NCBI RefSeq assembly: GCF_032884065.1
Contig: NC_088864.1
Coordinates: 20,811,654-20,875,653, forward strand
Origin: Artemia franciscana
Lineage: Eukaryota > Arthropoda > Branchiopoda > Anostraca > Artemiidae
Length of the DNA: 64,000 bases
Direction of reading: 5' to 3'
How positions within the stretch are numbered: position 1 is the stretch's first letter; each line of letters starts with the position of its first letter. The translations under genes and the position numbers were made by a program. Shown here piece by piece: positions 7,811 through 50,985 of the stretch. The notes under the pieces were generated by a model, which made no database searches, had not been told where the DNA came from, and was given only the letters and a program-made list of their open reading frames with translations.

Positions 7811-9106
7811 ATGCCTGTATACTCGGTTAATTTGAAGTGGTTTAAAAAATTATATCATAATTTAAAATTAAATACTGATAAGCAGCCATGGGCTTTTAAA
7901 AGACAGTTGTTTACGATCACAGGCGTCATTCCTGAGCGACAAAAAGTCATAATGAAAGGGAAAAAGTTGAAAGACTATACTTGGCATGGGTTTGATATCA
8001 AAGATGGTGTTACGTTGACATTAGTAGGAACTGGGGAAGAAAACATCCTTGCCGAGCCTTGGGAAAATCAAATGGCAATGACTTATATTACAGCAACCTT
8101 ACATTTATTGTTAACCATTACTGACCTATTTGAGTGTATATTTTATAATGAAATTGATATTGCTTGGTCTGGTTCAGTTCGGAAGATTGTAGACATATTG
8201 ATGAATCAATTTAATTTTTTTAATGTTAACCATTACACTGATCCTGCAGAACTGATCGAACATGTTATTGGTGAATTCCCTCGTCTTGATGAAGAAGGTA
8301 TGTTTGTCCGACAAGATGCCAACGAGTTCTTATTAAGGGTATTATCTGCACTTAAGCAAGGACTTTCACCGCTACAAGTTAGAAATCAACCCACAAACTA
8401 CTCCTCATTTATTGATCAGTTTTTGGGTGTTTTTTTCTCGTGTAAAATTAGTAATTTAGAAGATCAGCATGAGCCAGTTTCGTATGCTATTGAGGGTTTT
8501 TTTCAGTTGAACTGTATTATTTCCAGTGAGGTGAACTCCCTGGAAGACGGCATAAGGCTCACATTGAAAGAAGAGATCATTCAGTGTTCTCAGATTACGG
8601 GCCGTGATGCAGTATATGAGAAAAGATATGAAATCAGCCGTTTGCCTTCGTATTTGTTCATTAAGATGGAACGTTTTTCAAAGAAGAAAGGAAAAAGTGA
8701 ATATGTAAAAAATTATAAGGATGTGCAGTTGCCTGTTCAATTGGATGTTAACGAGTTCTGCAGTGAAGAACTGAAATCTAATTTAATGCCAATGAGAAGA
8801 AAACTTGAAAATAATATTGAAAATATAAAAAACAAACGAGTAAGTGAGGAGGAAATTACTTGGTTCCTCAATGACATTGGATCAAACAATTCAGGATACT
8901 ATGAACTTAAAGCTGTGTTGATTCACCATGGGGAATCACTTTCAAACGGATATTATGAAGTATGGCTCAAACGAGGGAATAAATGGTTACAATATGATAC
9001 TAATTTTTATGCTGAAACAGAATACATTTTGGAATTGTGTAGAGGCACAAAGGAATCCTGTGCCTATATTTTGCTTTATGGTTCAACAAAGATTATTAAG
9101 AGCTAA
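7811..9106 (+). CDS. Intronless USP14-like pseudo-deubiquitinase
   Basis: An uninterrupted 431-residue frame. Residues 1-75 match the N-terminal ubiquitin-like domain of USP14 (opening MPVYSVNLKW, then RQKVIMKGKKLKD), which in USP14 docks on the proteasome. The rest follows the USP fold: the Cys box aligns (..MAMTYITATLHLL), QDANEF at 168-173, IDQFLGVFF at 201-209, ISRLPSYLFIKMERF at 275-289, DIGSNNSGYYELKAVLIHHG at 355-374. USP14 cleaves ubiquitin from proteasome-bound substrates, but here the nucleophile position (NTCY in USP14) is Thr91 and the catalytic His (GHY) is Tyr381. Only the Asp position (YD at 395-396) looks kept. It should not cleave by the normal mechanism. USP14 genes normally have many introns; a single exon suggests an old retrocopy. 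No poly(A) tail or target duplication is evident. An intact frame suggests retained function or youth. Confidence 0.85.
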   Translation: MPVYSVNLKWFKKLYHNLKLNTDKQPWAFKRQLFTITGVIPERQKVIMKGKKLKDYTWHGFDIKDGVTLTLVGTGEENILAEPWENQMAMTYITATLHLLLTITDLFECIFYNEIDIAWSGSVRKIVDILMNQFNFFNVNHYTDPAELIEHVIGEFPRLDEEGMFVRQDANEFLLRVLSALKQGLSPLQVRNQPTNYSSFIDQFLGVFFSCKISNLEDQHEPVSYAIEGFFQLNCIISSEVNSLEDGIRLTLKEEIIQCSQITGRDAVYEKRYEISRLPSYLFIKMERFSKKKGKSEYVKNYKDVQLPVQLDVNEFCSEELKSNLMPMRRKLENNIENIKNKRVSEEEITWFLNDIGSNNSGYYELKAVLIHHGESLSNGYYEVWLKRGNKWLQYDTNFYAETEYILELCRGTKESCAYILLYGSTKIIKS

Positions 9107-10789
9107 AGTGTTTTAATTTAGATGGTCTAGCCCTTTATTCAAGGTACAGATTATTCTTATTCTTGCATGTTGTGTACAAAAGAGCAATGTTCACTTGTAA
9201 CAATCCTTTAATTGTCGTCATTTGCTGAATACGCGCTATGAATATAGCATACTTGCAATATCTCAGGGAAAAGGAAAATGGATTTAAAATCTCTTTGTGT
9301 CTGAACCACATAAACAAATTTGCACCATAACTCTTATGGGACTTGGAATCTATTTACAATTAAACAATGATTGAAATCAAATTTAGAATCGTAACTAAAC
9401 CAAATGATACACCAATATACTGCATCTGCAATATCTTGGGAGCAACTGTGAGGATTTAGTTTTAAAATTTCTCAGTGTTGAGAGCAAAGGGACATCAAAT
9501 TGTACAATTATGGGGGATTAGAGGACACAAATTTATGTCTCGAATCTGCACAAACAACCTCGCACCATTAACCCCAGTAAATTAGCTCCATGATCCATCC
9601 ATGTTGAAACAGTGAGGTATATCGAGGTACATGTACCCAAGCTATCAAACCAGTCATATCAAAAATATCTTCATTATTCACATCAAAAAACATGGCAAGA
9701 ACGTTCGCAATATCCCTGGAACAGCTCGGGGGTTTGAGTTAAAACTATCAAATTGCTTGGAAGAGAAGGGGATTAGAATACTTTTACTTAGGGGAGGATG
9801 AGAAAAGAAAGAAAATTTTGTTCTTCATCCGCCTGGAATTTTTTCCACTATTTACCCATGGAGCTTAAAATATAATCACAGGGAGGCAGTGAGAAAAATC
9901 AGTAAACATTTATATGCACCCTAGTTATATATATATGTATGTATACCTTATATGTGCTCAAGATATACCCTTCAAATTTTATTTCTGCGGAAGGAATGGG
10001 GGGGGGTGTTTAGTTTTTAGTTTTTTATTACGGACTACTATACGACAATTCTTTTTGGCGGCGATTTGAATAGGCAAGTTGATGAACAGTGTTTACACTT
10101 AGGCCAACAAAACATACATCTTATATATCTTGGGGTGTGCTGAACCTTTTAAGGAGTGTTAGGAGAAGACAAGATAGGGGGTTCAATGATCATGTTTGGG
10201 AAGAAGTTTGCCCAAAAATGGCCTAAATGAGGACGAAGCCGAAAAGTTTGCCTATTCCTTTTAAGTTATCTAGAAGTATATTCATTCCTTAATAAATCAT
10301 AGAGTAGCTTATGAGTTGGAATGATACTTTCTTAATAAAATAGGCCTAGAACTTCCTTCTATATTCCAACATATTAAAAACACTGTTAACACACATTTAA
10401 GCTTCTTGCACCTCTGGTGACCTTAGTTGTGTAGTATGTGGAAAAATTCCCGCTTAAAATCCCAAAAGTTTTGAATATTGGATATTGCCCTGGGAATAAA
10501 GGATTTTCATCCTCAAGTCACACCAGTGAGAAGGAAAATTAAATTCGTCATCATCATAAAGGATTTTCATTGGTATTTTCTTGTTACTGTGCAAAAGGCC
10601 CGAAAATCCCCTTTAGGCTGAAAAAAGAACCAGAACGGAGTATTGTGCTGCCATCTGCCTATAACTATTAACGCGATTATTAAAGAAGAAATTAAAATCC
10701 CAAAGCTGTTATAAACAAACAATTGGAATGTCTTCTTCTGTTCCTGTTACTGAAGGAGGTATTTTTGTCATTTGTCTTAAAATCATAAG
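9107..10789. other. Intergenic, degenerate tandem repeats
   Basis: Between about 9200 and 9800 three loosely similar blocks share 'gcaatatct/ccctgggaac' followed by 'ggatttaaaatctc' forms, suggesting an old tandem repeat. From 9940 to 10790 there are G-runs and two copies of 'ataaaggattttcat', but no gene is recognised. Confidence 0.35.
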
Positions 10790-16350: not shown

Positions 16351-18223
16351 CTAGACAAAGTAGCTGGGGGAGGTTATTGGCCTAGAAGTTGTCAGTCTAT
16401 CTCTTTCTGGGGCGCATGCAATGACCTCATCCTTCAAATATGATTTTTGGGAGCTGGCTGGCCAACATTTGCTGGATATGGCCAAGCCAGCAGAGTTGCT
16501 GGATTCTGACCCAGTCCATGATGGTGTGGGGACAATGGAGTAGTTTTCAGAGGTCTTCATTTGAGACTCAGTCAATGTAGGTGATCCCTGCAATGCATCT
16601 AAGGCATTTAGTTTCAAATGCAGAGATTCTTTGCTCATTGTCAGCCTTTATTGACCAAGTTTCGCTTGAGTATAAAGCAATTGGGATTATGAGGGAGTTG
16701 AAGAGTTGCACCTTCAGAGAAGTTGACAGAGTCTTGTTTCTCCAGATTGGCAAGAGGTTCTTGAAGATGGCGCCTGCCAGGCCAAGTCTTCATTTGATCG
16801 ATCTTGAGCACTCGTTATCAGAAGTGAGGAGGCTCCCTAGGTAGATGAAGGATTCAACATTTTCTACTGGCTCTCCTTTTATTGTTAGCTCCACGTTTCT
16901 TAGAGTAGGGTCTCCAGACACCCACATAACCTTGGTTTTGGCTGTGTTAACAACCATCCCAAAGGCCTTGGTTGCCAACACTAGTTTGTTGGTGTCACCT
17001 TGGAGTAGATGCTTTTGACTGTTGAATTTTTTGATGTCATCTGCGTATGCCAATTTATTGATAAGCTTCCCTCCAATTTCTGCACTGTCAACAATCTTGG
17101 CAAATGATAGTGCTGCATTGAGGAATAGGTCAAAGAGGTGGAGTGACAAGGGACAACCTTGAAGAACGCCCGCCAATGTCAGAAACCTTTCTGTCAATCC
17201 TTCAGGCGTTTGGACTTGGCTGATGAAATGTGAATACATGTCTTTTATCAGGATTACTATGTTTTCAGGGACTCCATAGTGTAGCAGGATGTGCCATAAT
17301 CCATCTTGCCATGTCAAGTCAAAAGCCTGCTTGAAATCAATGAAGAGTAGTAGCAGCTCTTTTGCAAACTCAATATACTTCCCCATCATTTGCTGAGTGG
17401 AGAAAATCTGGTCTATGGTGGAGCAGTCTTTTCGAAAGCCTGCTTGGTATTCCCCTAAGATATGGTTTGTCAGAGATTTCATACATTCAAGGAGTTTTTT
17501 TGTAAGAATCCTTGCCAGTTAGCTAGTTAAACTTATTGGTCTGTAGTTGTTACAGTCACCCTTTTCCCCCTTTTTAAAAAGGGGGATGATGGGAAGTGGC
17601 CCGTTTCCCAGACACTTGTTATGACTTTGGGATAGATATCAACCAGTTCTTTTGGGCCTGCTTTTAATAGTTCTGACTGAATACCATCCGGGCCTGGGGC
17701 TTTATTAATTTTTAGAGATTTTATTGCTGAGAGTACTTCATCTCTTAGTGGGGGAGGGCTTGGGTCTACTGGGTACTGCGGTAGTGGGAAAGATAGTAAG
17801 ATGTTTGGGTCAGGTGTTATTGTGGGGTTCAGTTTTTCTCTGAAGTGATCCTTCCAACATTCTGGTTTTGCCTTGGAGCCCATGTTTATCTAACAGTGTA
17901 GGAGTGGCTGATGACTTCTTTTTTGACAGTTCCTGGACTTTCTTGTACATGAAGTGGCTATTACCTTTTTGAAAGCCTTCTTCACATTCACAACATTTAT
18001 CATTGATGTAATGTTGTAGAGCTTGCCGGATTTTCTTTTCTACTAGGTGCTTCAGCCTCTTGTACTCGTCCTTGCTTTGTGGATCTACCTTGTTAGCATG
18101 GACGTGCTTCTGCACACATAGATCAATAATTTTGGGGGTGATCCATGGTTTATCTGAATGGGTCTGAATTCCCAGGATTTCACTAGCAGTTTCTCTGATG
18201 ATGGATGTGCTTTTGTCAACCAA
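16351..18223 (-). pseudogene. RTE LINE linker and reverse transcriptase, frameshifted
   Basis: Pieces in order: linker (18223-17810, 17883-17533, with the NKAPGPDGIQSELLKA block), RT palm (17482-16790: FIDFKQAFDLTWQDGLW, GVLQGCPLSLHLF, LAYADDIKKF with the catalytic YADD at about 17035-17050, VNTAKTKVMWVSG, YLGSLLTSD), then thumb and C-terminus (16753-16351: LPIWRNKTLSTSLKVQLFN, YSSETWSIK). The order is normal for an RTE RT. At least four frameshifts separate the pieces, so it is not expressed as one protein. Confidence 0.85.
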
Positions 18224-18455: not shown

Positions 18456-19280
18456 TCACTTGCCAACAAGTATGTAGTCGATCATGTTTGCAGTGCGGCC
18501 GTCAGGGGATCTCCAAGTAACTTTCCTTTGTTCTCTATGATGGAACATGGTGTTCGTTGTGAAAAGTTCGTTATCCCAACAAAAGTCAATGAGCATTTCA
18601 CCCCTGTGGTTTTGCTGCCCATGCCTGAACTTGCCCATGACGTCTTCAAGTCCATCATTTGAGTGTCCAATAATGGCGTTGAAGTCCCCAATCACAAACA
18701 GAACATCTTTCTTGGGAGCCGTGTCAATGGTGTGTTGGAGTTGGCTGTAGAATTCTTTGGCTTCTTGGTCATTCCAGGACAAGTCTGGGGTGTAAACTTG
18801 GATTATGGTCATATTGGCAATGGTTCCTTTCAGACAAATGGAGAGTAGGAATCCGACACCTTGGCAGTGAACTCCATCACTTCTTCCAGACGTGATGAGC
18901 GTGATGTCTTTTATTCTTTCTATTCCTGTGGAGGGAAGGTGAGTCTCAGAAAGTCCAACAATGTCCCAGTGGTAACGGTTCATCTCGTTTAGGACTAGTT
19001 CCCTTTTTCCTGGTTTGGCTAATTTGTGTACGTTTAGCATTCCTAGTGAGAGATATGTTTTTGGGGTTAGGATAAACAAAGTCTTCTCTGACTGGAGAGT
19101 CGTCAGATTGGATAAATGATCGTCGGTTGCCCTGGACGCGGTAACAAAATCATTTTCATTCTCATTGTTATCAACATTATCATCATTTTCATTGTTGCAA
19201 TTTGCAATTCTTGGTCTCATACTGTCGGTTACCCTGGACGTGGTAGCACGAGTTCTTACTTTCTTATTCGCCATTTTCAT
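18456..19280 (-). pseudogene. RTE LINE endonuclease domain
   Basis: The largest intact frame of the element (274 aa). After a charged Asn/Asp-rich leader it shows the AP-endonuclease series: LGMLNVHKL, DIVGLSETHL (catalytic Glu), IIQVYTPDLSW, VIGDFNAIIGH (catalytic Asp/Asn) and DGRTANMIDYILV. The C-terminal SDH-equivalent falls after a frameshift, in 18216-18440 (FNLDHVLVMSELRLR). The ATG at 19278-19280 is a reasonable start because the 5' UTR upstream has no longer frame. Confidence 0.85.
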
Positions 19281-21577: not shown

Positions 21578-24500
21578 GCTGCAGATCCTACAATGGAATT
21601 GCGTCTCTTTAAATTCAAATAAACTTGCTGATCTTATCCAGTATGCAAATGATAATAGAATTGGAATTATTTGTCTACAAGAGACTAATCTTCATCAGTA
21701 AAAGAAAATCAAAATGCCTGGGTACAAGTGCTACAGGAAAGATAGATCAACTAACAGAAAGGGAGGGGATGTGGCAATCTTTGTTCATGTTTCAATCCAA
21801 CACTCCCCTCAACCCTTAACTATCTACAGGGATGAAATAGATGTTGTAGGTATAATAATTACCTTAGCCAATGGTAACCGTCTTGCCATAAAATCCTTTT
21901 ATAATCCATGTGGGAATAAGGACATCCAAAGTATCTTGGAAACAGAATTATCAGGTAATAATACCGTTATTTTTGGTGATTTTAATGCCCATAGTCCTCT
22001 CTGGGAACATTCAGCTGGTAGCAACAAAACAGGAAGAGGAATAGAGTACATTTTGTCCGATTTTCCTGACACCTTGATTTTCACTCCATTTGACTTTCAG
22101 ACCAGGTATAATATTTCTTCTAACTCTTTCTCAACTATAGATTTGCTTCTAGGTCCTTCTTCATATTATGATTTAGTTCAGATGGTAAAGGTGTCGTCTC
22201 TTCAATCTGATCATTGTGCAATTCTTACATCATTTCAAGATTTATGCTAAAATCCCTACATTTATTAACTCCAAAGGTAATTGGTCCCTTTTTCGTGAGA
22301 TATTAAATGAAGTAGATTTTTCCTTTGTTTCTCCTAATTCTGATATTAATGCCATTGAGTCTAATTTGAGATCAATCCTGCTGGAGTCAGCTAAATTGGC
22401 AATTCCAATGACTAGGGAGCATTTTTACAATGGCTCCAAAAGACCCAAGAATTGGTGGAATGATGAGTGTAGGGTTGCAGTTCTGGCAAAAAGAAAGGCT
22501 CGTAAAATGTTTCAAAAGCACCCATCTCAGTCAACAGCAATCTCTTATAAGCAGTCATGTGCTAAGGTGAAACTAATTTGTAGGAGAGCCAAACAGAGTA
22601 CATGGCTGAATTTCAGCTCAAGTATCAGTTTTAGAACCCCAATTTCAAAGGTCCATAATTTCATTAGCCAACTAAATAGTGGAAAGCAGCCTAATGATGA
22701 CCGTAGATATGATATCATTCAGGATGGATATCCAATTGTCTCAGATAAAAAGAAGGCAGATCTGTTTACCGATATTTAAAAAAATGATTGCTCAGATTTT
22801 CATCCCAGCCGACCTCCTTTTTGTAATCTCCCTCTTACCTGTTCTTATAAGGGTACTCTGATGAAACCTTTTTCCCAAGATGAATTTTGTGTAGCACTTA
22901 ATTCTCTTAACATCAAGTCTTCCCCAGGTTATGATGGTATTTATATGAAGTGGATTCTTGAGTCCCCAAAGGTGATTCATACAGCCCTCTTAAGTCTTTA
23001 TAATCTTATTTGGTCAAGTCAAAAGTTCCCAGATGCTTGGAAGATTGCTCAGGCATTCCCAGCTTGAAAACCTTCTTATTCATCTAATGATCTTAGGTCT
23101 TACCGTCCTATATCGGTATTACCTTCCTTTAGTAAAGTTCTGGAAAGGCTTGTCTTATCAAGAATTGAGTGGTTTTCTGAAGTCAACAATCTCCTTCCTA
23201 GTGAACAAACAGGTTTCAGAAAAGGACATAGCTCTTTAGACAACATTACCCGCCTAGAAATTGATGTTTGTAACTCTCTTAAAATAAGACATGTCACAAT
23301 GGCTCTTCTGTTTGACTGGTCGAATGCCTATGGCAATGTAGTCCACAATAAATTATTGGAAATCGTAATAAATCTTGACTTCCCGTATCCTTTTATAAGT
23401 TTTATAAAGTCTTCTTTAACTGATAGATATTTTTACGTTCAAGTAAATCAGTCTATAGGTGAGCAATGCCCCATTACGAGAGGACTTCCTCAAGGTGCAA
23501 TATTGAGTCCTCTTCTATTCAACTTGTATGTTTCTGAATTTCAAGTATCTCATGCATCATTTGGCCTTTATGCAGATGATTTGATCATTTGGAAGTCGGG
23601 AAGGGATATTAGCCTTCTTCAAAGCCTTATTCAACAGGATATAAGTTTAGTCCAGAGATTCTCTTTAGCATTTGGCTTCCCAATCTCAATCAGTAAAACT
23701 AAAGCCATTATATTTACTAAAGGTACTCTAGATCCTCCTAATCCACTGACAATTTTCTCAAGGGAGATCCCATATTGCAATTCAGTGAAGTTACTTGGTT
23801 TATTAATGGATTCTAAAATGCAGTGGCACAAACATATTAATTCTTTGAAATCTCTGATTATTCAGAGACTTTGTATTCTAAAAAGACTTGCTGGAAGTAA
23901 GTGGGGATGTCACCCAAAAATTATTTTGGATTTTTACAAATTATATATTCGTTCAAATATAGAATATGGGATTCAAATTTTTTCAGCTCGTCCTCCATCC
24001 TCGTTCAAAATCCTTGAATCTTTACAAAATTCTGCTATTCGAATAGCTTTGGGTGTGCATAAGCATACTCCTCTGTCAAAGTTAAGAATGCTGTCGGGAT
24101 TGGTGTCCCTAAGTGAAAGAGCATCTAGTCTAAGGATAAAATATTTCTCGCAAATCCAGGCTTATGGAGCCAAGCATGCTGTATATGCACATACCTTTGC
24201 TGAGAAGTCAGCCTGTCCCAATGCCCATTCATCATGGAATCAGTTTCAACTGGAGGTCCCAAACTGGAATCAACTTTCGCTTTATGCATATCCCTTTACT
24301 GAATCCCCTCCATGGGAAATGAGTCCTCCAAGCTGTCAAGTAGAACTTATCTCTATTAGTAAAGATTTGATTCCTAATTACAAGATCCAGACTATTTTGG
24401 CTGAATACATCTCAAAGGCTTACCCCAACTATAGAAAAATATATACAGATGGATCTGTCCAAAGGGAAAGAGCTGGAGCAGAAGCATGTATTCCATCCCT

Positions 24501-25230
24501 GAATTTGAACATTTATTCTCCTCTCCAATTGGGATCTTCTATCTTGTCTGCTGAATTATGTGCCATCCGCCTGGCCTTGGATGCACTAATAAATTATAAC
24601 ATGGAATCTGGAAATATACTCTGTCTCTCCGACTCTAAATCAGCATTACTACTGATCCAAAATATTAATAGAATTGCTAATGACAAAGATTTATATAATA
24701 TTAGAAGACAGCTTCTTAATCTTAAGATCAAAGAAAATGAAGTTTATTTTCAACATGTTCCTAGTCATAAAGGTATAAAATATAATGATATGGCTGATTC
24801 TCTAGCAGCAAAGGCTTCCATGTTATCTCCTAGTCCTTCCTCTGACCTCAGTTCACGAGATATTATCAGGCAAAGATCCCAAGTTAATCACAGTAAATTA
24901 ATGTTATCTCCATTTCATACAAGATTAAATACAGTGCTATATTACCGGTTGAAATCAGGTGCCCTACTTCTAAATAGCTTGTTATTTAATTGGAAGCTAC
25001 ATCATTCCCCTTTATGCCGAATCTGCTTTACAGCAGAGGAAACAATCCAGCATATTTTATTTGATTGTCAGGCTCAGAGTGAGAAGACTGTTGCTCTTAA
25101 GCGTTTCTGCTCCTTGGCTAAGATTTCAAATGCTTATACAGCTATCCTGGATTCTAACCTGCCATGGGAAATTGATCGTAAGATATTTAAGTCAGCAATT
25201 GATACCTTAAAGAAGAGAAATATTATTTAA
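21567..25230 (+). pseudogene. I-group LINE ORF2: endonuclease, RT, RNase H
   Basis: Endonuclease 21567-22250 (LQILQWNCVSLN, GIICLQETNLH, VIFGDFNAHSPLW, SSLQSDHCAIL). RT about 22860-23900 (RSYRPISVLPSFSKVLERL, ALLFDWSNAYGNVVH, GLPQGAILSPLLFNLY, LYADDLIIW at 23566-23592). RNase H about 24425-24815 (IYTDGS, SAELCAIRLAL, CLSDSKSALLL, HVPSHKGIKYNDMADSLAA, giving the D-E-D-D set). C-terminal CRICFTAEETIQHILFDC (CX2CX7HX4C) near 25015-25070. Lesions: stop TAA at 21699 (codon 45), frameshift near 22240, stops at 22777 and 23065. The 643-codon stretch after 23299 is intact. Function would be target-primed reverse transcription in the nucleus; this copy is dead in cis. Confidence 0.88.
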
Positions 25231-29719: not shown

Positions 29720-30066
29720 GAGGACCTCCGCCTGGTATGGGACAGCCATTAATGCGACCACAAGGACCATCATCGCTTGCTCCAGAGCCGAGAATGCCCC
29801 TTCAACACATGCCTCTGCAGGGACCACCTCAACATCATCCACAGCACCACTCTCCTGCCCCTGGACAACAGCCGCCGTACCCTCAGCCACAAGGACAGTA
29901 TACTCAATCTTCAGCAGAAAATTTTCAGGGCCTACAGAGGGCTATACAAACTATGGAGGATAAAGGCCTTCAAAATGATCCTAGATATGGCCAACTTCTC
30001 AATATTAGGAGCAAGCATCCTGAATACGTTAAAATGTATCCTTCTGGGCCTCCTAGTTCTGACCAG
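29720..30066 (+). CDS. brm: brahma exon: Pro/Gln-rich region and conserved pre-QLQ helix
   Basis: Phase 1 in, phase 0 out; 115 whole codons plus a shared Gly. It begins GPPPGMGQPLMRPQG and continues with His/Pro/Gln runs, then the conserved segment LQRAIQTMEDKGLQNDPRY found just before QLQ in BRM/BRG1 (human: LQRAIDSMEEKGLQEDPRY), ending HPEYVKMYPSGPPSSDQ. The donor is CAG|gttggt, weaker than the other donors in this gene. The conserved helix makes membership in brahma secure. Confidence 0.9.
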
Positions 30067-30659
30067 GTTGGTTTTTTCTGTAACTGTTTTGTAGTATGCT
30101 TCTGTTTTTGAGTATTTATGAGGTTTCTAAAAAAAAACAAAAAACAATTGATATTTTTACTCTCATATCATTTGTCTAAAAGTAATGGGAAGTGGCAACG
30201 CTGCAGATGCAAAGTAGTGCAAAACTCTCTTTTTATTTTGAAGAACATTTATTATATTTGTCAAAAATATTGTGTCAGTAAAGACAGAAACCTTTACTAA
30301 AACAATAGGAATGGCTGTCGAAAAAAAATACTTCAGCTTTTCATCTTCCGATTTTATTTACAGTATCCAAAGCTGAAAGAGTATGAAAAAATAATTTTAA
30401 TGTTTGTAATTCTTTCCACCAACTAAATATCCTTGCAAAGAAAGGTTGATTTTTTGCCTGGTTAACTTTTTGGTGAATCACTAATATTGAGCATGTCAAT
30501 GGAACGAATCCTTTTCTCTTCTCAGGGAACTTAGCATGTCAATGCGTTTTCTATACATTTTTGAGTTTGAGAGGGGCTGATAAGTCTGTACAACAATGTC
30601 AAAGAGACAGTTTATTGTTGCAAGGGGAAAATGAGTGGCTAAAATGGCAACGTCTGTCA
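30067..30659. other. Start of brahma intron between pre-QLQ and QLQ exons
   Basis: AT-rich intronic sequence with no recognised element before the RTE fragment starts. The whole intron runs 30067-35952 (5.9 kb) and is mostly nested transposon. Confidence 0.5.
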
Positions 30660-35952: not shown

Positions 35953-36730
35953 GGCTATCCTGCACAACCCCATCCTACGCCACAGCCAGGACAAGCACCG
36001 TCACCAACAAGTCAACCTCTCCCACAAGGAGCTGATAAAACTCATTTGAACTCGCATCAGATGCAGCAACTACGAGCACAAATAATGTCTTATAGACTGC
36101 TTGCTCGTAATCAACCTCTGCCGCAAAATATCGGTTTGATGGCTCAAGGAAGAGGTATTCCACAAGGACCTTCACAGGGTCCGTCTGTATTCCAACAAGA
36201 ACAACCTTCGCCTGGGCAACAAAATCAGTCTGTACAACAAGAACAGACCCCAGCACCTCAACAACCTGCACCTCCGTTAGTCCCGCCCAAGGCAAATAGA
36301 GTAACACCCCTTGCTAAACCTACAGGATTAGACCCTATATTATTGCTACAGGAGCGTGAAAATAGATTGGCCTCTCGAATCGCTTTAAGAATTGAAGAGC
36401 TGAGTAGTCTTCCTACGTCAATGGATGATGATCTCAAAATAAAGGCAGAGATTGAACTAAGAGCTTTGCGATTGCTCAACTTTCAAAAGCAGCTTAGAGG
36501 GGAAGTTTTGAATTGTATGAAACGAGATACAACTTTGGAAACTAGCTTAAACTTAAAGATGTACAAAAGGACTAAGAGACAAGGCCTCCGAGAAGCCAGA
36601 GCTACAGAGAAGCTGGAAAAGCAGCAAAAAGTTGAGGCTGAAAGAAAGAGACGACAGAAACACCAAGAATATCTTTCTGTTGTTCTGCAACATGTGAAGG
36701 ATTTCAAAGAATTTCACAGGAACATGCAAT
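35953..36730 (+). CDS. brm: brahma exon: QLQ domain and HSA domain
   Basis: The largest visible exon, 259 codons plus one base. After a Pro/Gln linker comes QLQ ([20 protein letters not shown] then RNQPLP, near 36046-36130), a protein-interaction motif at the N-terminal side of BRM-type ATPases. A Gln/Pro linker follows, then [20 protein letters not shown], and the HSA domain (about 36430-36725: [20 protein letters not shown] .. [16 protein letters not shown]-like [16 protein letters not shown]). HSA is a long basic helix that binds actin and actin-related proteins. The exon starts in phase 0 and ends caa t|gtaact, phase 1; spliced to the next exon it gives HRNMQ-S-KISRCN. Confidence 0.95.
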
Positions 36731-38825
36731 GTAACTATAATTTTTTTTTTCATTTTATGGTGTGTTTCTTTTAACCATCATATTGGAGATTATTCTTTAT
36801 AGCCCTCGAATATATGCAGTATTTGGTTGTAAATAAATAATGAGATTTTAATTTGAACTGACCAACCGTGGCAAAACTTGGAAACTAATGACAAGTAGTA
36901 TATATATAAAAAAAGAACGTCACAACAAAAGAATAGGACTTCAGCCAGTGAAATTCAAAGAAGAAAAATATTTATAATTAAATTTTCCTTTTAACTGGAT
37001 CTCAAAAGAAAGAAAAATCAAGGCCGTTTTTTTTTCCTCGTAACGAAAAACGCTTTTTTAGACATATGCAATATATATAACAGGCCAGAGCCTGATTTTT
37101 ATGAGTTTATTCTTTACATTTTTCAATATTGGACAAGTATTTCGATTAATCTGTCATTCGTTAGCTGAAATTCAGTTTCATCCATCTGCCAAATTGTATT
37201 CTTGAAATTTGCTTTGCATCTTATTTTTGAAACTGCATTGGGTAAACTCTGTATGCATTGCTAAATTTCGTATTCCTAACTGAGTTTAATTTCTAATTGC
37301 ACTGGAAAATCAAAATAATTTTAAAAGTACTGAATTTGCTTTAATTTACATATTTATCTCCAAAGATTTTTTTGTGCCCTTCCATAGCTTTTAGTTCATT
37401 AACTCTTCGGAAAAAATCTTGTCTTTTGTGGTAACAACTAGCAGAGGATCGGTTTTAGTGGGCTTTTTATTAAAGTAGCCAAATGCTCATACATTGAAAA
37501 AAAAATATTGCTGGAAAATGAAAATTGCGCTTACAGCTTTCTTTCTTTGCAAGATAGAACATAAATAGGGAAGCAATATAAAATATAGAATATATAATCT
37601 AAAATATAGAGCAAAACAGCTGAACTTGTGGAATTGTTTGACGGGTATTCACCTTCTTAAAAGAGCTCTGACCAGAATTAGTGTTTTTGTATTTGCCTCC
37701 CCCCTCCCTAGCCGCAAAAAAATTCAATCATAATGGATTGTAAGAGTCGCAAAAGACACGTTATTAAAAAGTAGACTCCCGGTCAAGTATTTGACGTGGG
37801 TGTACCTCGTATGTCATTTTGATCTCTACCGTCGTAGTAACATAAAACATGTGTTTTACGTCTCTCCGACTTCAGACAAACGTTGAGGAGAGAAATATTG
37901 CTAGTTTTGACTATAATATACAAACTACTGAGTGTAAAAACTTTTAGTTATCGTTTTGTGCATGGTTTTTCTTGAGTGTTTGAGTATAGAACAAGTTCTT
38001 AATTGTGGTCTAGCACATAGCCCTCCAAAGGGCAATATAAAAGCTTGTTAACTACTCAGCAATCAACAAGTTGTTAGGGTATTATTCTTTTTCTTAAGAA
38101 TTATCTTAGGAAAACTCTTAGGAAAATATCTTAGGAAATATCTTAGGAAAATGCTACAGTCAATCAAATGCTTTGATGCTTGAATACTTCTAGAGTTTCG
38201 GAATGCTACAATGGAGTAGCAAGAGAAATAGCAGTCATGGGATACTTTTCAATTTTTGCTCATAGGCACAAGACAGGACATATTTGATATCGAAATTTGT
38301 ATCTTGTAATTTTAGGATGCAAATATTTAAGCCACTTTTACAGTCACTTGTAATTTTCTGTTCTAAGGGGTTATGGTAGGCTATGCTAATTATAACGAAA
38401 ACATTAATAACAATTATAATTGAAAAAAAGATTATAACATTTTACGATAAGACAAGCTCTTTCACTTTAGTCACGGCTAAGGTACAAGTCTATAGAACTA
38501 TTATAATGATTGTCTAAAATTGTCCGAGTCTTCATATTAAAATAATAAATATGTAGAATGAAGATATATGTTCAAGTTCTGATCATGCTTGAAAACCTTT
38601 CTAAGAAGTTTTACTAGTAGTAACTTAGGAACTTATTAATTACTTATCCAAAAAATTCCATTTCGTTGCTGCTGTATTGAATTTTTTCTATAAAGCAACA
38701 TAAGCGTACGTAATGTAAAATTGTATGTAGAGCTCGAGTCTACCTGTCACTGCCTACCTTAAGGGCTTTATGCCCTGTATAGATTGCGTAACGCATCGTA
38801 TAGTCTTTAAAGACTTGAGTTTATA
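36731..38825. other. brahma intron, first part
   Basis: AT-rich with short tandem words 'cttaggaaaa(ta)t' at 38090-38155. I recognise no gene or transposon here. The intron continues to 39665. Confidence 0.45.
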
Positions 38826-49865: not shown

Positions 49866-50985
49866 GTTGCCAGTAAAATTACTACTTCGAAAATGTGAAT
49901 TTTATGGACTAAGAGGGGCTACTTTGGCTTTGCTTTGTGAATACCTCAAAAATAGGGAGCAGTATGTTCACATTAATGGATTTTCTTCAAGTAAGAGTCT
50001 TTTAAATTTGGTATCCCCCAGGGCTCTGTGTTAGGTCCTACTCTTTTTTCTTTATTAATGATGTGCCAAATGCTGTTGCAACTACTTCTAGAATTAGGGA
50101 TCTAGTTGATCCTGCAGCTTTGGGATCCAGGATCACTACACCCTTATTTGCTGATGATGCGACATTGATGCGTGTCGCTTCAACTGAACAACAAGTTACC
50201 TCAACAATTAATACAACTATGACTACGACATGTCTTTGGTTGAAGATAAACCGACTTGACCTAAATATAAATAAGTCAAGTTTTGTTATCTTTTCACGAT
50301 CCCGAAATTGCTATCCTTGGATTACGGAAATAGCTCCACCGAAGGGAATTATTAAGAGGTCAAGTTTCGTTAAGTACCTTGGGATTATTATTGACGAAAT
50401 TTTATCATTTAAGTACCATGTAAAAGCTATAAGTAGAATACTATCGCGGAATTTAGGGATTATCCGTAAATTAAAACACTTTTTTCCTTCAAATGTTTTA
50501 CGGTTATTATATTTTTCTCTGATTCATCCGTATATTTTGTATTGTTCGTCTGTATGGCTTGGACCATTCCCCTCATTACTTTGCCCAATCCGTGTACTGC
50601 AGAATAATGCCATCAGATCATTTTGTGGAATAGGGAACCGGGATTCGATCAGGTCAATGTACAGTATGATTAATATTATGCCTGCAGCCGGATTGCGTGA
50701 TTTTTATCACTAGTTTTTATGTATAAGTACTATTATGGGTGTGTTCCAGAATGTTCTACAGGAATTTTTCGGGAAAGATCTAATGTTCATGGTCACAGAA
50801 CTCGAACAAGTAGACATATTGAAGTTCCTCGCCTAGTTTCAAGTAGGGCGGCTTTTTCAGTTATTTATAGAGGGGCTAAGCTGTGGAATAAGGTTGTTAC
50901 AAGTACCAAAGTATTGCCCATTAATCAATTCAAAACTGAGCTGTTTGCGGGGTTACTTGGTAGGTATACCTTTGAAATAGATTGA
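49866..50985 (+). pseudogene. CR1/Jockey-type LINE RT, 3' half
   Basis: RT fingers/palm at about 49895-50060 (ALLCEYLKNREQYVHINGFS, then after a frameshift GSVLGPTLFSLFINDVPNA); catalytic LFADDATLM near 50143-50170; WLKINRLDLNINKSSFVIFS; VKYLGIIIDEILSFKYHV; YILYCSSVWLG; and a C-terminal tail WNKVVTSTKVLPINQFKTEL. Frame changes near 50015 and 50715. The thumb and tail are typical of CR1/Jockey elements without RNase H. A 3' UTR-like region follows to about 51200. Confidence 0.8.

Follow-up and report, generated by a model that had tools for sequence, protein, structure and literature searches.

The window analysed here, a 64,000-nucleotide stretch of the Artemia franciscana genome, carries an old, intronless USP14-like reading frame that is very probably a conserved protein-coding retrogene without USP catalysis. 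USP14 is a deubiquitinating enzyme of the proteasome. In the copy, the catalytic Cys and His have been replaced by Thr and Tyr, and the codons appear to have stayed under purifying selection, which sets the frame apart from a neutral relic. The frame is predicted to encode a folded pseudo-deubiquitinase. The features on which this argument draws, numbered by position in the window, are the following.

7811..9106 (+): intronless USP14-like open frame, 431 codons plus stop, whose only genome match at the DNA level is itself
7811..8050 (+): UBL domain, codons 1-80, with the highest constraint within the copy
8018..8020 (+): Thr70, aligned with human Leu70 of the RPN1-binding patch; Met in the parent
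8059..8060 (+): point of an in-frame loss of 24 parent residues (UBL-USP linker), between codons 83 and 84
8060..8155 (+): Cys-box segment, codons 84-115, with the weakest constraint by regional omega
8063..9079 (+): USP (UCH) domain, codons 85-423, from Pfam
8066..8068 (+): Asn86, aligned with human USP14 Asn109, retained
8081..8083 (+): Thr91, replacing the catalytic Cys (human Cys114) in alignment to parent and human USP14
8711..8716 (+): Asn301-Tyr302, aligned with and replacing ILR residues (human Val343-Leu344; Ile-Leu in the parent)
8951..8953 (+): Tyr381, replacing the catalytic His (human His435) in alignment to human USP14
8996..8998 (+): Asp396, the catalytic Asp (human Asp451), retained in alignment to human USP14

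The Reading Frame and Its Homology

The six-frame listing gives a frame of 431 codons and a stop at 7811-9106 on the forward strand, with an ATG start and no internal stops, and the intact frame described in the first-pass annotation is thereby confirmed. For the reverse-complement strand of the window, coverage consisted of the six-frame listings. Window and frame lie on contig C2 of a 1.27-Gb genome. Pfam assigns residues 85-423 to the UCH family (E 1.4e-26; 94.1 bits against a cut-off of 23.9) and matches residues 16-73 to the ubiquitin family with an E value of 0.0013, below that family's cut-off. Human USP14 is the top PDB match (E 1.1e-67; aligned residues 1-83 and 127-428), and its UBL pairs with residues 1-83 of the window protein (domain i-Evalue 1.5e-18). 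The proposed alignment with USP14 along nearly the whole frame, ubiquitin-like domain included, is thus supported by both the Pfam and the PDB matches.

Two other origins were considered and rejected. A viral or phage source found no support, as no relative was present in viral contigs (searched with peptide patterns) or in phage records (tblastn). Membership of a repeat family was likewise set aside because the frame alone is returned from the genome at the DNA level; its flanks match themselves and, elsewhere in the genome, short stretches about 53 to 99 bases long.

The Parent Gene and the Origin of the Copy

The multi-exon parent whose existence the first-pass annotation had anticipated is encoded on another contig of the same genome, at about C6:5007327-5045408, in six exons with GT-AG introns. 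This gene is a splice model without transcript support, its 16-base first exon being the most tentative. It encodes 483 residues, and NTCYINAT, GHY and the Asp are all intact. A protein search of the genome with the window frame gave 24 matches, among which the C6 loci rank best after the frame itself, and the start MPVYS is common to copy and parent. Protein identity amounts to 190/427 (44.5%) between copy and parent, 158/427 (37.0%) between copy and human USP14, and 270/465 (58.1%) between parent and human USP14. Because of these identities, the copy is assigned to the USP14 of its own lineage, with which it groups on a long branch of its own. In terms of sequence, then, it is an intronless copy of the lineage's USP14 gene and by descent a USP14 paralogue.

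None of the parent's five modelled introns is present in the copy, and from the missing introns we infer that it arose by retroposition. No A run of seven or more was found in 9107-10700, and the sole exact 10-mer common to the flanks compared is the low-complexity AAAAGGAAAA; loss of the poly(A) tract and of the target-site duplication is expected at the copy's age. Neither flanking repeats nor a poly(A) tail offered anything usable for dating.

The window also contains putative LINE-type reverse transcriptase and endonuclease fragments at 16790-17482 (-), 18456-19280 (-), 21714-22250 (+), 23299-25230 (+) and 50063-50713 (+), in whose translations YADD or FADD is visible. Such LINE-like pieces are a possible source of retroposition machinery.

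Catalytic Residues

The replacement of Cys by Thr91 and of His by Tyr381, reported in the first reading of the sequence, holds at the human Cys114 and His435 positions, with the Asp kept. In the Cys box, human Asn112 is Ala and Asn117 is Thr in the copy, by alignment to human USP14. The retained Asn86 corresponds to a residue that we presume to have an oxyanion role in human USP14, and the human letters over the Cys box and linker (about residues 83-114) used in the comparison are likewise taken as given. The register of the Cys box was obtained in three ways: the Pfam UCH match begins at residue 85, which is profile position 4; phmmer sets Tyr92 of the copy opposite the Tyr following the Cys in chain 6lvs_A; and MAFFT sets NTCYINAT of the genome's own USP14 opposite AMTYITAT of the copy. 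The NTCY box is also encoded by the DNA of that parent gene.

A different alignment that would restore the catalytic residues had been held open as an objection. It is ruled out by the agreement of the Pfam, phmmer and MAFFT registers, and it does not apply in any case because AMTYITAT contains no Cys. By its catalytic residues, the copy is not a USP14-type enzyme.

Selection on the Frame

Copy and parent are identical at a fraction of 0.59 of first, 0.70 of second and 0.43 of third codon positions. Pairwise omega was estimated by maximum likelihood at 0.12, with an omega of 0.5 worse by 57 in twice the log-likelihood; the fitted pairwise dS is about 4, synonymous sites are near saturation, and the omega values lean on the model. 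A three-sequence codon model, with human USP14 as amino-acid tip and outgroup and with equal neutral time assumed on both branches, gave an omega of about 0.19 for the copy's branch and 0.036 for the parent's, and an omega of 1 on the copy's branch is worse by 79.5 in twice the log-likelihood. When neutral time was split 30:70 or 70:30, an omega of 1 for the copy was worse by 35.4 or 120.9; under such unequal times the copy's omega ranges from 0.13 to 0.30, and 1 is still rejected. Fixing neutral time at about half of what was fitted doubles omega for the copy, to 0.40 (UBL 0.25, Cys box 0.95), the likelihood differences being conditional on that fixed time. The dN/dS comparison with the parent proposed at the outset thus speaks for constraint, both pairwise and on the copy's own branch.

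Four regions (UBL, Cys box, BL1-ILR and C-terminus) were compared for omega. The Cys box stands at 0.45 vs 0.18 elsewhere in the copy (test statistic 11.7 at one degree of freedom), the UBL at 0.13 vs 0.21 elsewhere (statistic 6.6); for BL1-ILR (statistic 0.05) and the C-terminus (statistic 2.0) omega did not differ from the rest of the copy. Outside the Cys box, constraint runs across the USP domain. Residue retention, tried in five regions, gives a similar contrast: of the residues shared by parent and human, the copy retains 35/48 in the UBL vs 105/201 aligned elsewhere (p 0.0098), and 5/21 in the Cys box vs 135/228 elsewhere (p 0.0023).

When the parent coding sequence was evolved neutrally in 300 simulated runs to 0.05 substitutions per site, a mean of 3.5 stops arose and 3% of the runs stayed stop-free, in agreement with the earlier expectation that a neutral retrocopy should gain stops; the divergence of the copy from its parent is far above that simulated distance. 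A retrocopy neutral from the outset is ruled out by the pairwise omega, the branch omega and this simulation. Starting from the present frame, with substitutions only and indels excluded, 4.8% of 1000 runs remained stop-free at 0.04 and 2.5% at 0.05 substitutions per site. Because so few runs stay open, any neutral period or recent loss of function must be short.

Decayed USP14 Copies in the Genome

Decayed copies of the intron-bearing USP14 gene occur on C1, C4541, C6043 and C7, with pieces on C6, C2171, C3889 and C13. All ten exon-4 copies compared are broken by one or more frameshifts and, read in the parent frame, by 1-3 stops; their DNA identity to the parent is 88.6-95.2%. They illustrate the course that decay takes among copies of this gene in the genome. 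In seven of these ten, pairwise omega is 0.23-0.30 and significantly below 0.5, so a low pairwise omega alone is no proof of present function. These controls are DNA-level copies and not retrocopies, and they are non-independent, as most of them have lesions in common; the C1c and C4541 copies, with identical values, are probably one sequence. A further genome search listed 25 matches, and the comparison was made without the stop-bearing C3889 pieces, the C13 piece (open, 54 codons, query residues 1-64), the 71-base repeat piece beside the parent exon and matches of 30-35 bases.

The intron-bearing decayed sites lie at C1:13634000-13643999, C1:13792000-13811999, C1:36748000-36757999, C4541, C6043 and C7:40000-59999. 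Several of them have common stops and lack the same 7 bases of exon 4, a pattern that would fit the spread of a decayed USP14 pseudogene by DNA duplication. The repeat piece beside the parent exon, at C6 ~5023614-5023684, is a 71-base near-duplicate (95.8%) of the exon 4 start, about 580 bases upstream of the exon.

Linker, ILR and Proteasome Contacts

The 24-residue loss after codon 83, a feature absent from the first-pass annotation, removes most of the UBL-USP linker, a flexible segment of 23 residues in human USP14 (PMC9117149). In that report, a 4-residue linker deletion lowered activity by 20-30% and the architecture tolerated linker change; the changes made there fell short of a near-complete loss. 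The same source describes the UBL and USP domains of active USP14 as bridging RPN1 and RPT1 and places Leu70 at the centre of the RPN1-binding patch (PMC9117149). The Thr found at that centre in the copy argues against tight RPN1 docking. The ILR, two residues of which are replaced in the copy, is described as an element of activation by RPT1, and inactive yeast Ubp6 needs two residues of this element to exert its noncatalytic effect (PMC8837689).

Contact residues were compared as named in PMC9117149 and PMC8837689. In human numbering, Glu202, Phe331, Lys334 and Ser430 are retained in the copy; Trp472 is replaced by Glu and Tyr285 by Ser, and Phe332 and Tyr333 are also altered. Asn383 falls in a gap of the copy, and the parent also lacks that Asn.

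Weighing the Explanations

The copy is probably no dead gene but one that encodes a functional protein with a task other than catalysis. The relaxed Cys box together with the tightest constraint in the UBL fits a protein that has lost its enzymatic function and acts by binding. Under the reading that we favour, catalysis would have been lost and the UBL would lead, acting at the base of the proteasome or at a different UBL receptor; the USP domain would be an inert scaffold or a weak ubiquitin holder that does not cleave, and the copy would dispense with the RPN1-to-RPT1 bridging and the ILR switch of active USP14. With linker and ILR lost, bridging by the copy is unlikely, and a UBL-led role is favoured for that reason. 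Placed on top of a conserved non-catalytic retrogene, this UBL-led mechanism is offered tentatively, at slightly less than even confidence, and our best guess puts it first, with a role away from the proteasome next. A reading that goes further, with a selected but catalytically dead USP14 whose UBL does the docking and which governs proteasome behaviour with neither deubiquitination nor the ILR-RPT1 switch, is rather unlikely.

Retrogenes are often expressed in the germ line, and there, for instance, the UBL and USP folds may have been taken into a new role off the proteasome, in which they would bind ubiquitin or some different partner. Constraint on the USP domain outside the Cys box and the altered published proteasome contacts agree with this possibility, but UBL constraint exceeds that of the rest of the copy, and we regard it as doubtful. 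The idea put forward in the first-pass annotation, a decoy that docks like USP14 and, sitting at its site, blocks or modulates the active enzyme, survives in part. The constrained UBL and the kept Glu202, Phe331 and Lys334 are in its favour, and inactive relatives offer precedents, as human C114A causes build-up of ubiquitinated proteins in cells, an effect that requires the proteasome-binding domain (PMC6839854), and inactive yeast Ubp6 still inhibits the proteasome (PMC8837689). Yet the copy lacks the linker, and the ILR, Tyr333, Phe332, Trp472, Tyr285 and the Leu70 position are all altered; in yeast, ILR mutation almost completely abrogates the noncatalytic effect of Ubp6 C118A (PMC8837689), and human C114A, in the in vitro assay described in PMC9117149, did not obviously inhibit degradation. 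Taken together, these points make a decoy of this kind unlikely.

A gene that was long functional and has died recently, its frame not yet broken, would also leave a low omega, since omega records history and the decayed parent copies share pairwise values below 0.5; moreover, omega along the copy's branch is about five times as high as along the parent's. Against this, the scarcity of stop-free runs from the present frame leaves room for only a short neutral period, and recent death seems decidedly improbable. Least probable is that the copy is still a deubiquitinase through another nucleophile. For USP52, activity through non-conserved cysteines is claimed in the literature, and for USP39 it has been suggested (PMC10919355), but here Cys and His are both gone, and the Cys box is near-relaxed and has no Cys to offer.

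Other Observations in the Window and Genome

A window frame at 36046-36774 (+) contains QLQ and HSA domains according to Pfam; we take this pair to be SMARCA4/brahma-like, and the frame is probably part of such a gene. The proline/glutamine-rich frame at 29737-30111 (+), which Pfam leaves unmatched, is possibly an exon lying upstream.

In the genome as a whole, 75 matches to COX1 were found, 13 of them covering nearly the full family model, and in 11 of these 13 TGA codons are the sole 'stops'. The loci include C4:9980752-9982092, C12:16543503-16544840, C8:20125253-20126593 and C10:43712228-43713568, and several matches lie at inner contig positions. Eight copies compared pairwise are 95.9-99.3% identical over their best-matching stretch. 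The copies fit the invertebrate mitochondrial code (TGA = Trp, AGA = Ser; ATA presumably Met, judging by conservation). They look like many large, recent mitochondrial insertions, and one match may be the mitochondrion itself.

Known Relatives and Significance

USP26, USP27X and USP51 are intronless retrogene deubiquitinases described as active enzymes. The copy resembles them as a DUB gene copied by retroposition and kept, and differs from them in having lost its catalytic residues. USP53 and USP54 were reportedly annotated as pseudo-deubiquitinases until shown to be active. With USP14/Ubp6 the copy shares its domain order, a UBL at the N-terminus and a USP domain after it, and homology along almost the full length; it differs in being intronless, in the missing linker, in the replaced Cys and His, and in the altered ILR and several proteasome contacts. 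The USP-family pseudo-deubiquitinases USP39/Sad1 and USP52/PAN2 have, like the copy, a USP fold without the standard catalytic triad, and USP39 likewise lacks both Cys and His (PMC10919355). Unlike the copy, proteins of this type are splicing, RNA-decay or other factors, and none is described as USP14-derived in the available text of PMC10919355. No description of a USP14-derived retrogene or pseudo-deubiquitinase was found in the open-access papers searched, subscription literature lying mostly outside the search; this hints weakly at novelty.

If the copy is not expressed, it would be merely a slowly decaying gene copy of little importance. If it is what we propose, it would add a further independent case of a pseudo-deubiquitinase born by retroposition. 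Besides cleaving ubiquitin, USP14 regulates the proteasome in a cleavage-independent way, and these two roles are hard to separate. The copy would be a natural separation-of-function protein, in which catalysis and the ILR switch have been lost and the UBL is the most constrained part; should the reading of UBL docking also be true, it would represent evolution's own split of the catalytic and allosteric roles of USP14.
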